Shown one piece after another: positions 24,122 through 43,447 of a stretch of DNA of 64,000 bases. The number at the start of each line of letters is the position of its first letter. The stretch's first letter is position 1. Both the position numbers and the translations under genes were made by a program. Below the pieces are notes generated by a model. The model was not told the origin of the DNA, searched no databases, and worked only from the letters and a program-made list of their open reading frames with translations. The DNA is from Ramlibacter sp. WS9. Its GTDB lineage: Bacteria; Pseudomonadota; Gammaproteobacteria; Burkholderiales; Burkholderiaceae_C. Where the stretch lies: the NCBI RefSeq assembly GCF_003797765.1, contig NZ_RKMB01000027.1:1-64000 (forward strand). The letters are read 5' to 3'.

Positions 24122-25309
24122 TCAGAGCACGACCGGGATCTCGGTGGCGGGTGGCGTGTTGCGGCTGCGGCCGCAACGCACGAGGCCGTCGATCATCACC
24201 ATGCCGACGCCGGGAATGTCGCCGAGTTGCACGCTCTCCAGCAAGCCCTTGCCGGCCGAGTGTTGGGCCTTGTCCATGAAGACGAAGTCGGCGGCACGGC
24301 CCGGTTCGATCAACCCGCAATTGAGGTTGCGAATCCTTGCCGTGTTGCCGGTGGCGAAGCAGAACACCAGCTCCGCCGGAATGCCGGCCAGGCTGGACAG
24401 CATGGCGACCATGCGAAGGATGCCGAGCGGCTGAACGCCCGAGCCCGCTGGACCATCGGTGCCCAGGATCACGCGGTGCGGGCACTTCAGCTGCAACGCC
24501 ATCTGCGCGGCGGCGATCGCGACCTTCTCGTTGCCGTTGTGCACGATCTCGATCGCGCGCGAGGAGCGCTCGCACAGTTCGCAGACATGCGCTTCGGGCA
24601 GTGACGTATGGCCCCCGTTGATGTGCCCGATGATGTCGGCGTCGGCTTCGAGCACCACGTCCTTGTCGATCAGGCCCGAGCCGGGGATCGAGGGGCCGCC
24701 CGTGTGGATGGTGCTCTGGATGCCGTGCTTGCGCGCCCAGGCCACCATGCGCTGCGCTTCCTGGCCGGCCTTGACCGAACCCAGGCCTACTTCGCCGAGC
24801 AGCTTCACGCCGGCGTCGGCCAGGTCCTTGAAGTCCTGTTCGACCATGCCCTGCTCGATGACTGGCGCGCCGGCCAGCACCTTCACGCCGCCGGGCCGGA
24901 AGTTGTCGAATGCGCGTTGTGCCGTGATGGCCAGCGCTTTCAAACCGACGATGTCCTTGGGCCGGCCGGGCAGATGCACTTCACCGGCGGAGATCATCGT
25001 CGTCACGCCGCCGTTCATCGTCGAATCGATCCAGCCGATCTGGTTCTGGCGCGGCGTCCAGTCGCCGAACACCGGATGCACATGGCTGTCGATCAGGCCC
25101 GGTGCGACGCAGGTCTGGCGCGCGTCGATCAGCGTGGCGGGTTCGCTCGTGTCGCAATCTGCTGCGCGGCCCACCGAAGTGATGAGGCCATCGTGCACGA
25201 CGATGGTGTCGGCGTCGAGGATGGGGCGGTCCAGGTCGCCCGACAGCAAGAGGCCGATGTTCTTGATGACGACCTTGCCGGACTTGCCGGTGCTCGTTGC
25301 GTCTGCCAT
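24122..25309 (-). CDS. ena: Enamidase (6-oxo-1,4,5,6-tetrahydronicotinate amidohydrolase)
   Basis: The 395-residue amidohydrolase resembles Eubacterium barkeri enamidase along its whole length, including GGVTTMISAGEVHLPGRPKD, GGVKVLAGAPVIEQG and the C-terminal SRNTPPA. The binuclear metal site is visible: DSHVHP, the bridging glutamate in GEVGLGSVK, IHTGG, GHINGG and LGTDGPAG. The enzyme opens the reduced pyridone ring of 6-oxo-1,4,5,6-tetrahydronicotinate and releases ammonia to give 2-formylglutarate. The start has CTGGAG upstream, and a perfect 18-base palindrome lies 31 bases before it. The assignment rests on family resemblance and on the 6-hydroxynicotinate reductase gene nearby. Confidence 0.87.
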   Translation of the reverse strand: MADATSTGKSGKVVIKNIGLLLSGDLDRPILDADTIVVHDGLITSVGRAADCDTSEPATLIDARQTCVAPGLIDSHVHPVFGDWTPRQNQIGWIDSTMNGGVTTMISAGEVHLPGRPKDIVGLKALAITAQRAFDNFRPGGVKVLAGAPVIEQGMVEQDFKDLADAGVKLLGEVGLGSVKAGQEAQRMVAWARKHGIQSTIHTGGPSIPGSGLIDKDVVLEADADIIGHINGGHTSLPEAHVCELCERSSRAIEIVHNGNEKVAIAAAQMALQLKCPHRVILGTDGPAGSGVQPLGILRMVAMLSSLAGIPAELVFCFATGNTARIRNLNCGLIEPGRAADFVFMDKAQHSAGKGLLESVQLGDIPGVGMVMIDGLVRCGRSRNTPPATEIPVVL

Positions 25310-25339
25310 GGAATGCTCCAGAATGTGTCGATGAATTTG

Positions 25340-25357
25340 ATGTAGTGAATACTACAT
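25340..25357. promoter_or_regulatory. Predicted TetR operator upstream of the enamidase gene
   Basis: ATGTAGTGAATACTACAT is an inverted repeat with 7-base arms and a GAAT centre, sized for a TetR dimer. Fourteen of its bases, AGTGAATACTACAT, recur at 27510-27523 between the ferredoxin and reductase genes. The TetR gene lies between the two sites. Confidence 0.75.
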
Positions 25358-25402
25358 TGCCAAAGAGGCGCGGGCAAGAAGAACTAGGGTGACAGCTGGG
25401 CG

Positions 25403-25506
25403 GGATCGGGGTGGCGGGGCACTCTGCGCTGCGAATGTCCCCCGTCGCGGCAAGCCGCTCCCTCCTCCTTTATTTCGCTGCGCAGAGCGCCCCACCACCC
25501 CGATCC
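25403..25506. repeat. Long inverted repeat, 33-base arms
   Basis: Bases 25403-25435 and 25474-25506 are reverse complements with three mismatches across 33 positions, around a 38-base centre. The outer ends are GGATCGGGGTGG and its complement; the inner ends are CTGCG.GCGAA. The element fills most of the 279-base gap between the enamidase and TetR genes and has no convincing reading frame. A transcript would form a very stable hairpin, so it may insulate or terminate the tetR message, or be a palindromic mobile unit. Confidence 0.8.
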
Positions 25507-42165: not shown

Positions 42166-42207
42166 TTCGAAGTTCTGAAAAAGCACAAGTCGATGCACAG
42201 AAGTCGT

Positions 42208-42236
42208 TTGCGCGGCTATCGGTGGGGTTCTATAGT
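42208..42236 (+). promoter_or_regulatory. Possible promoter of the glutaryl-CoA dehydrogenase gene
   Basis: TTGCGC (42208-42213), a 17-base spacer and TATAGT (42231-42236) give a plausible sigma-70 promoter in the 97-base gap after nicB. Five of six bases match in the -10. It would let the dehydrogenase gene be expressed apart from the nicotinate operon. Confidence 0.4.
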
Positions 42237-42262
42237 TGCCTCATTCCATACCGGGGCTTGAA

Positions 42263-43447
42263 ATGAGTATTTCGAATAAAGCGACTTTCCAATGGGCCGA
42301 TCCTCTGCTGCTGGACCAGCAGCTCACCGGCGACGAGCGCAGCGTGCGCGAGGCCGCGGCCGCGTACTGCCAGGAGAAGCTGGCCCCGCGCGTGATCGAA
42401 GCCTTCCGCAACGAGAAGACGGACGCATCCATCTTCCGCGAAATGGGTGAGCTGGGCCTCTTGGGCTCGACCATCCCCGAAGCCTACGGCGGCGCCGGCC
42501 TCAACTACGTCTGCTACGGCCTCGTGGCACGTGAGGTGGAGCGTGTGGATTCGGGCTACCGCTCCATGATGAGCGTGCAGTCGTCGCTGGTGATGGTGCC
42601 GATCAACGAGTTCGGCAACGAAGCCACCAAGCAGAAGTACCTGCCCAAGCTCGCCACCGGCGAATGGATCGGCTGTTTCGGCCTGACGGAGCCGAATCAT
42701 GGCTCCGACCCCGGCAGCATGATCACTCGCGCCAAGAAGGTCGACGGCGGCTACAAGCTGTCGGGCAGCAAGATGTGGATCACCAACAGCCCCATCGCCG
42801 ACGTGTTCGTGGTCTGGGCCAAGGACGACGAAGGCGCGATCCGCGGCTTCGTGCTGGAGAAGGGCTGGAAGGGCCTCTCCGCCCCCGCCATCCACGGCAA
42901 GGTCGGCCTGCGTGCCTCCATCACCGGCGAGATTGTGATGGATGAAGTGTTCTGCCCGGAAGAGAACGCCTTCCCCGACGTGCGCGGCCTGAAGGGCCCG
43001 TTTACCTGCCTCAACTCAGCCCGCTACGGCATCGCCTGGGGCGCGCTCGGCGCCGCCGAAGACTGCTGGTTCCGCGCGCGCCAGTACGTGCTGGACCGCA
43101 AGCAGTTCGGCAAGCCGCTGGCGGCCAACCAGCTGATCCAGAAGAAGCTGGCTGACATGCAAACCGAGATCACGATGGGCCTGCAAGGGTGCCTGCGCCT
43201 GGGCCGCATGAAGGACGAGGGCACGGCGTCGGTGGAGATCACATCCATCATGAAGCGCAACTCCTGCGGCAAGGCGCTGGACATCGCGCGCGTGGCCCGC
43301 GACATGCTGGGCGGCAACGGCATCAGCGACGAGTTCGGCGTGGCGCGGCATCTGGTCAACCTGGAAGTGGTCAACACCTACGAAGGCACGCACGACGTGC
43401 ACGCACTGATCCTGGGCCGGGCCCAGACGGGCATCTCGGCTTTCTAG
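42263..43447 (+). CDS. gcdH: Glutaryl-CoA dehydrogenase
   Basis: The 394-residue acyl-CoA dehydrogenase has the GcdH features: [18 protein letters not shown] at the start, [38 protein letters not shown] and the catalytic glutamate in [15 protein letters not shown]. It oxidises and decarboxylates glutaryl-CoA to crotonyl-CoA, giving electrons to ETF. The start ATG at 42263 has only a weak GGGG upstream. Placement after nicB fits breakdown of 2-formylglutarate through glutarate and glutaryl-CoA; it may equally serve lysine or other glutarate sources. It is convergent with dhaK, 4 bases apart. Confidence 0.93.

Follow-up and report, generated by a model that had tools for sequence, protein, structure and literature searches.

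A probable aerobic nicotinate ring-reduction cluster in Ramlibacter sp. WS9, with candidate roles for its UPF0280 and PF06684 proteins and two alternating ring openers

The first 64,000 nucleotides of contig NZ_RKMB01000027.1 of Ramlibacter sp. WS9 (the window) carry, at positions 24122-43447, a 19-kb gene cluster built around hnr, the gene for 6-hydroxynicotinate reductase (Hnr). With a probability that we put at roughly 85%, this cluster is an aerobic nicotinate catabolic island of the Azorhizobium type, to which proposed roles for a UPF0280 protein and for two PF06684 proteins may be added. A first-pass annotation of the DNA had listed a NicA/NicB-like hydroxylase, Hnr, an enamidase, a ferredoxin and its reductase, a nicotinamidase and a glutaryl-CoA dehydrogenase (GCDH), and had proposed a pathway in which nicotinate is oxidised and then reduced. 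All of these proteins were found within the cluster, and the proposed pathway fits every gene and is backed by the conserved cluster in relatives. The central claim is right but already known: since the Azorhizobium cluster and route have been published, the window is a betaproteobacterial case of a known pathway. Missing from the earlier list were the UPF0280 gene and the two PF06684 genes, the most constant companions of hnr. These accessory genes travelling with the nicotinate cluster are the new part, and they, together with an exchange of ring-opening enzymes, are what a specialist may not expect.

The hnr gene (27580..29157, + strand) encodes a protein of 525 amino acids; no Protein Data Bank (PDB) entry or NCBIfam family matched it, nor did any Pfam family above the cut-off. 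It is named from its relatives, because those on plasmids (26 in all) are annotated as 6-hydroxynicotinate reductase or hnr in 17 cases, and because of the published cluster. The enamidase (24122..25309, - strand), an amidohydrolase (PF01979) and the predicted opener of 1,4,5,6-tetrahydro-6-oxonicotinate, matched the enamidase of Eubacterium barkeri (2VUN) with 365.6 bits over query residues 11-391. The NicA-like [2Fe-2S] subunit (38033..38527, + strand; PF01799 and PF00111) is 62.6% identical to Pantoea NicA. It is followed by a NicB-like molybdopterin subunit with a C-terminal cytochrome c part (38524..42165, + strand; family search and motifs), in which CxxCH occurs at residues 837, 983 and 1112, as expected from the three haem c motifs noted earlier, with a hydrophobic stretch near residue 791. 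FdxA ferredoxin (open reading frame 27064..27543 with a likely start near 27405, - strand) exceeded the cut-off of NF045490 (159.3 against 135). The adjoining Fpr-like ferredoxin-NADP reductase (26266..27039, - strand; family searches) is a candidate electron source for Hnr, and its top NCBIfam match was below the cut-off of the model (149.7 against 390). The GCDH (42236..43447, + strand) matched 3GNC with 757 bits and is the sole close copy in its own genome (next best 35% identity).

At least 597 pattern matches to Hnr-like stretches were obtained in genome contigs, 589 of them encoding a relative. For the best 80 of these 589, which were kept, the record title named a betaproteobacterium or betaproteobacterial group in 79 cases and an 'uncultured bacterium' in one. 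A second set comprised 25 further hnr loci, mostly from alphaproteobacteria. The order of the cluster was conserved in the 80 betaproteobacterial loci and in the 25 others, and this repetition in relatives indicates that the cluster is not a chance assembly. With at least 9.3 kb available downstream, 61 of 62 betaproteobacterial loci had a NicA homolog and 56 of 62 an enamidase homolog; with at least 3.6 kb upstream, an enamidase homolog was present in 65 of 68. The cluster is common in betaproteobacteria. Hnr was found in 32 of the 398 Pseudomonadota genomes sampled, and in 4 of 274 sampled genomes of the class, one of these four being a partial match of 34% that is not counted here. No Firmicutes hnr cluster was seen in the viral-contig scan, and the genome searches were of Pseudomonadota only. 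In one of the further loci (L135; genome G286, 2969820-2971198) hnr appeared as two pieces joining at query position 250, with matches overlapping by 4 nucleotides, which could be either a natural split or a frameshift.

Following the named families and the Azorhizobium work, nicotinamide would be deamidated, probably in the periplasm, and nicotinate would be taken up by the ATP-binding cassette (ABC) system of the cluster. NicA/NicB would convert nicotinate to 6-hydroxynicotinate, and the electrons would reach the respiratory chain via its cytochrome c part. Reduced ferredoxin and Fpr would supply Hnr, which would then reduce the ring to 1,4,5,6-tetrahydro-6-oxonicotinate, the compound that the enamidase would open to 2-formylglutarate and ammonia. 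UPF0280 is proposed as the maturation factor of Hnr and as a candidate for inserting its flavin, and the two PF06684 proteins would work on the ring-opened 2-formyl dicarboxylate, by decarboxylation or tautomerisation; in a limited reading of the literature, no gene named for the 2-formylglutarate step was found. The carbon would leave as CO2 and glutarate, the latter becoming glutaryl-CoA for oxidation by GCDH, the one enzyme identified of a presumed exit that would also take a decarboxylase, a semialdehyde dehydrogenase and a CoA-transferase.

The gene behind hnr (29172..30110, + strand) encodes a UPF0280/COG2122 protein (NF003322, 396 bits against a cut-off of 290). UPF0280 was found downstream of hnr on the same strand in 116 of 118 loci, within 65 nucleotides in 109 of them (L001 and L085 being one place). 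The sequence of one exception, L038, stops 145 nucleotides past hnr; the other, L003, belongs to genome G190, which has a divergent Hnr, and is a true exception. The AlphaFold model of UPF0280 (predicted local distance difference test score, pLDDT, 92.3) has an ApbE fold. Foldseek placed it closest to DVU1097 (2O34; E 7.2e-11), and then to the flavin transferases FmnB and ApbE (E 8.5e-6 to 1e-3, with 8.5e-6 for 7ESC and 4.3e-5 for 5MGY). Residues Asn117, Gly119, Gly120, Asp121, Ala171-Thr172-Ser173-Gly174 and Asp199 were invariant in all 40 rows aligned, and Thr203 was present in 38 rows, with Ser in the other two. The E. barkeri Hnr was reportedly described by Alhapel in 2006 as holding a covalently bound flavin; if it does, a protein of ApbE fold that is translated together with Hnr would be an obvious candidate for attaching it. 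For ApbE, the review PMC12052999 (in part) names Ser241, His257 and Asp285 in Vibrio cholerae numbering, and Ser173 and Asp199 of UPF0280, placed by motif, may be the essential Ser and Asp retained. On balance, the odds that UPF0280 attaches the flavin of Hnr are put at about even.

Hnr itself gave less structural information. Its model was moderate (pLDDT 70.8; predicted template modelling score, pTM, 0.65), and no known fold could be assigned, as nothing in the PDB came within E ≤ 0.001 in the structure search. All 39 Hnr rows had a faint GCV_T_C match in common (best E 0.00056). A relationship to DUF39, by which Hnr would have been linked to COG2122, was rejected, since PF01837 was matched neither in the WS9 genome nor in the 39 rows. 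The stretch nearest to a flavinylation motif, DHITGVL, was conserved in 39 of 39 rows only as far as G278; it was also rejected, as it has Leu at the acceptor place and does not fit the canonical motif. Seven cysteines, and no other, were invariant in the alignment of 39 Hnr rows. The E. barkeri enzyme reportedly contains three iron-sulfur clusters, for which seven invariant cysteines are too few.

Two PF06684 (DUF1185) proteins, both above the family cut-off, are encoded next. AAS1 (30107..30760, + strand) is BB2672-like, and its start codon lies on the stop codon of UPF0280 in an ATGA overlap. AAS2 (30789..31373, + strand) resembles SPO0826, with 299.7 bits to 2QTP (SPO0826) and 110.5 to 3BYQ (BB2672). 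Among the 75 betaproteobacterial loci with room, AAS2 was present in all and AAS1 in 67; of 249 genomes, 34 had a member of PF06684. Nine residues (N38, K82, E91, E93, H94, R108, E162, R174 and R178) were invariant in 59 of 59 sequences from several contexts. Twenty PF06684 loci away from hnr were fetched, and nine of these shared a gene family represented in L188 by a luciferase-like monooxygenase, which adjoins a flavin reductase, an aldehyde dehydrogenase and an alpha/beta hydrolase. This make-up is that of the trigonelline pathway, and in both that pathway and nicotinate ring reduction a hydrolysed enamine yields a 2-formyl dicarboxylate, which gives CO2 and a semialdehyde. Because the nine invariant polar residues fit a dicarboxylate enzyme, and because of these trigonelline-like contexts, the PF06684 proteins are proposed to act as decarboxylase or tautomerase of ring-opened 2-formylglutarate. 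TgnF of the trigonelline pathway is a PF06684 homolog and stimulates succinate semialdehyde oxidation, according to the accessible part of PMC7913881. Two loci (L171 and L172) combined an enamidase, AAS1 and AAS2 with a neighbouring PnrA-like binding protein and ABC ATPase; they had no hnr in the 15 kb fetched, and this set possibly serves another ring compound. A third PF06684 copy in the WS9 genome (contig C180, 5279-5800) adjoins an FAD_binding_3 monooxygenase and an FAA hydrolase.

It was considered whether the Hnr module might serve another 2-oxo-N-heterocycle, with NicAB and nicotinamidase either chance neighbours or feeding a Pseudomonas-type pathway encoded elsewhere. In alphaproteobacteria, Hnr, UPF0280 and PF06684 are also found in the company of hydantoinases and of different molybdenum hydroxylases, and specificity for nicotinate may therefore not hold for the module everywhere. 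Using NicA, C, D, E, F and X of a Pantoea plasmid nic cluster as queries, only NicA matched in the window (E ≤ 1e-3), in keeping with the earlier statement that NicC, NicX, NicD, NicF and NicE are absent from it. In the genome as a whole no NicC ortholog was found, the best match having 38% identity; this relative was assigned to 3-hydroxybenzoate 6-monooxygenase (scoring 559.9 bits where the cut-off is 459), and another, at 35%, was closer in the PDB to a vanillate hydroxylase than to NicC (220 against 173 bits). Several observations count against the island as read here. Contig 96 has a gene resembling NicX (37%), surrounded by an acyl-CoA dehydrogenase-like gene and others, and contig 11 has one resembling NicE (57% identity). 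FdxA was found in just 15 of the 70 betaproteobacterial loci with room, and no GCDH match was found in the 25 further loci, of which only L119-L122 reach past the end of NicB. The earlier claims of a ferredoxin and Fpr supply (Fpr being present in 56 of the 73 loci long enough to show it) and of carbon flow to glutaryl-CoA are therefore weaker than stated, and FdxA and GCDH are plausible partners rather than fixed members. The NicX-like and NicE-like genes stand in unrelated neighbourhoods on two contigs, with no further nic gene beside them except a 28% partial NicD match adjoining the NicE-like gene; given this scatter and the lack of a NicC ortholog, a complete Pseudomonas-type set is unlikely, NicD and NicF having been sought in the window only. 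The nearly constant NicA homolog downstream of hnr in betaproteobacteria also argues against another heterocycle, as does strain SG-6C, a carrier of the cluster which grows on 6-hydroxynicotinate and nicotinate (PMC3511419, in part). We therefore regard a different substrate as very unlikely, and nicotinate catabolism is retained.

The roles proposed for the accessory proteins have rivals of their own. UPF0280 might take part in sulfur or iron-sulfur chemistry, for example in loading the clusters of Hnr, instead of attaching its flavin. In the accessible part of PMC5764234, COG2122 is needed together with DUF39 and a NIL/ferredoxin protein in Desulfovibrio, for homocysteine synthesis, and a persulfide role is suggested; the seven invariant cysteines of Hnr would suit such a function. 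Against it, the 40-row UPF0280 alignment has no invariant cysteine, the nearest characterised folds are flavin transferases, and the DUF39 partner was matched neither in the WS9 genome nor among the Hnr rows. The sulfur role is possible, but we consider it rather doubtful. Regarding the PF06684 proteins, the fact that they immediately follow hnr and UPF0280 at most loci would agree with a subunit or partner of Hnr that does not act after ring opening. However, the 20 fetched loci had PF06684 with no nearby hnr, two of them beside an enamidase and nine of the luciferase/aldehyde dehydrogenase type, and the invariant residues look catalytic. In the 25-locus set, moreover, AAS2 accompanied the enamidase in 10 of 10 loci but the hydantoinase in just 3 of 10, and an Hnr partner is judged unlikely. 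Flavin attachment by UPF0280 and an action of PF06684 on the ring-opened product are preferred, and the following points weigh against them. Template modelling scores of UPF0280 to ApbE were just about 0.3-0.5, none of its 40 rows offered an invariant His to match His257 of ApbE, and the canonical D-x-x-[ST]-G-A-[ST] motif is missing from Hnr. The homology of COG2122 seemingly stops short of the flavin-binding region (PMC5764234, in part). Genome G190 (L003/L139) has no UPF0280 beside hnr, as confirmed in a 20-kb stretch, and the hnr loci L125 and L139 have no PF06684 within 20 kb.

The enzyme predicted to open the ring was not the same in all hnr loci. In the 25-locus set, ten loci had the enamidase, ten had a HyuA-type hydantoinase (with or without HyuB), five had neither and none had both. 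Genome-wide, ring openers were counted in 34 Hnr genomes (the 32 from the 398-genome sample, plus G051 and G190), with orthologs called at 61% identity or more for the enamidase (others being partial and at most 40%) and at 60% or more for HyuA (next best 44%). The enamidase was present in 20 genomes and HyuA in 16, with both in two (G384 and G455) and neither in none. A hypergeometric figure of 8.6e-8 leaves kinship out of account and is not taken as a probability. By genus, nine had the enamidase only, seven HyuA only and one was mixed. HyuA was found in 16 of the 398 Pseudomonadota genomes, all 16 being among the 32 Hnr-positive ones; the HyuA and Hnr samples of 398 were taken as the same set, and the Hnr-negative control covers HyuA alone. 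On the Hnr tree of 33 rows, some of them long-branched and that of G190 the most, the enamidase label required three changes, forced by starred branches (bootstrap range 3-3). In G384 and G455 a second locus holds the enamidase next to AAS1 and AAS2, with no hnr within the 15 kb fetched. For 8 of the 16 HyuA genomes, HyuA was on a different contig from hnr or tens of kilobases away, and the link in those genomes is therefore co-occurrence and not adjacency. A limited literature search found no paper joining a hydantoinase with the nicotinate ring-reduction pathway. These data might indicate that Hnr, UPF0280 and PF06684 form a portable module for ring reduction and semialdehyde delivery. In such a module, UPF0280 would be a cytosolic relative of ApbE placing the flavin of Hnr at a non-canonical site, and the PF06684 proteins, which trigonelline-type pathways would share, would be the missing enzymes that decarboxylate or tautomerise 2-formyl dicarboxylates. 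The unrelated enamidase and ATP-dependent-type HyuA/HyuB would be exchanged behind Hnr. Taken as a whole, this proposal is tentative, and we hold it to be somewhat less probable than its negation.

The remaining genes of the cluster concern regulation and uptake. A TetR-family regulator (25589..26269, - strand; PF17938 and PF00440) occupies a place that is conserved in relatives, and a MarR-like gene was found in most alphaproteobacterial loci of the 25-locus set. Behind AAS2, all on the + strand, follow a branched-chain-type ABC substrate-binding protein (31418..32665; PF13458) and, identified by family searches, fused permeases with two BPD_transp_2 domains (32695..34578), two ABC ATPases (34578..35357 and 35357..36115) and, beyond the nicotinamidase, a second branched-chain-type substrate-binding protein (36891..38036). 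The permease pair is a single fused gene in other loci likewise. The nicotinamidase (36156..36881, + strand; NF008623, 188.8 against a cut-off of 174) was found in 34 of 64 betaproteobacterial loci, and its twin-arginine-like leader (DRRFFLR) suggests deamidation in the periplasm ahead of import. Two adjacent arginines occurred within the first 15 residues, as called, in 22 of the 34 orthologs of these loci.

As the pathway was already known, what becomes newly testable is the role of PF06684 and of UPF0280/COG2122, families with no assigned reaction, because each belongs here to a short pathway whose intermediates are defined. Structures of PF06684 proteins have existed since 2010, and UPF0280/COG2122 is required for homocysteine synthesis in Desulfovibrio. 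A further consequence of the enamidase/hydantoinase exchange is that a search keyed on the enamidase misses about half of the sampled Hnr genomes (14 of 34 had no enamidase ortholog).

The cluster can be compared with several known systems. The nicotinate fermentation of E. barkeri, reportedly described by Alhapel in 2006, has Hnr and enamidase homologs in common with the window. It has an FAD/selenium NdhFSLM hydroxylase where the window has the aerobic NicA/NicB with cytochrome c, and a reductive 2-methyleneglutarate branch, with a 2-formylglutarate reductase, where the window has GCDH. The Pseudomonas putida nic pathway shares NicA and NicB, whereas its NicC, X, D, E and F have no match in the window, and the genome has no NicC ortholog. 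UPF0280 is like the ApbE/FmnB flavin transferases in predicted fold and in the conserved Ser and Asp of an ApbE-like core, and differs from them in having no matching invariant His and, as presumed target, an Hnr with no canonical motif. BB2672, SPO0826, HcdD and TgnF belong to the same family as AAS1 and AAS2 (PMC2954203 and PMC7913881, each in part), and the accessible text of PMC2954203 draws no nicotinate link for BB2672 or SPO0826. The closest counterpart is the cluster shown in 2012 for four alphaproteobacteria, namely Azorhizobium, Bradyrhizobium japonicum, Rhodopseudomonas palustris HaA2 and strain SG-6C (Shettigar 2012, PMC3511419, in part), and the earlier claim that this design is scarcely described at gene level was accordingly overstated. 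The earlier statement that Azorhizobium was reported to form a tetrahydro-oxonicotinate (THON) was sound: a route via THON and glutarate is cited in the same paper (Kitts 1989/1992), and PMC9304392, in the part available, likewise groups E. barkeri with Azorhizobium. Two genes of the PMC3511419 cluster, going by the accessible part of that paper, would correspond to UPF0280 and PF06684. The cytochrome-linked NicA/NicB hydroxylase, the Hnr homolog and the enamidase of the Azorhizobium-type pathway are all present in the window, which differs from the Azorhizobium/SG-6C cluster in its betaproteobacterial host, in TetR for MarR, in the adjoining FdxA and nicotinamidase and in the downstream GCDH. 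These differences are of arrangement and not of principle.

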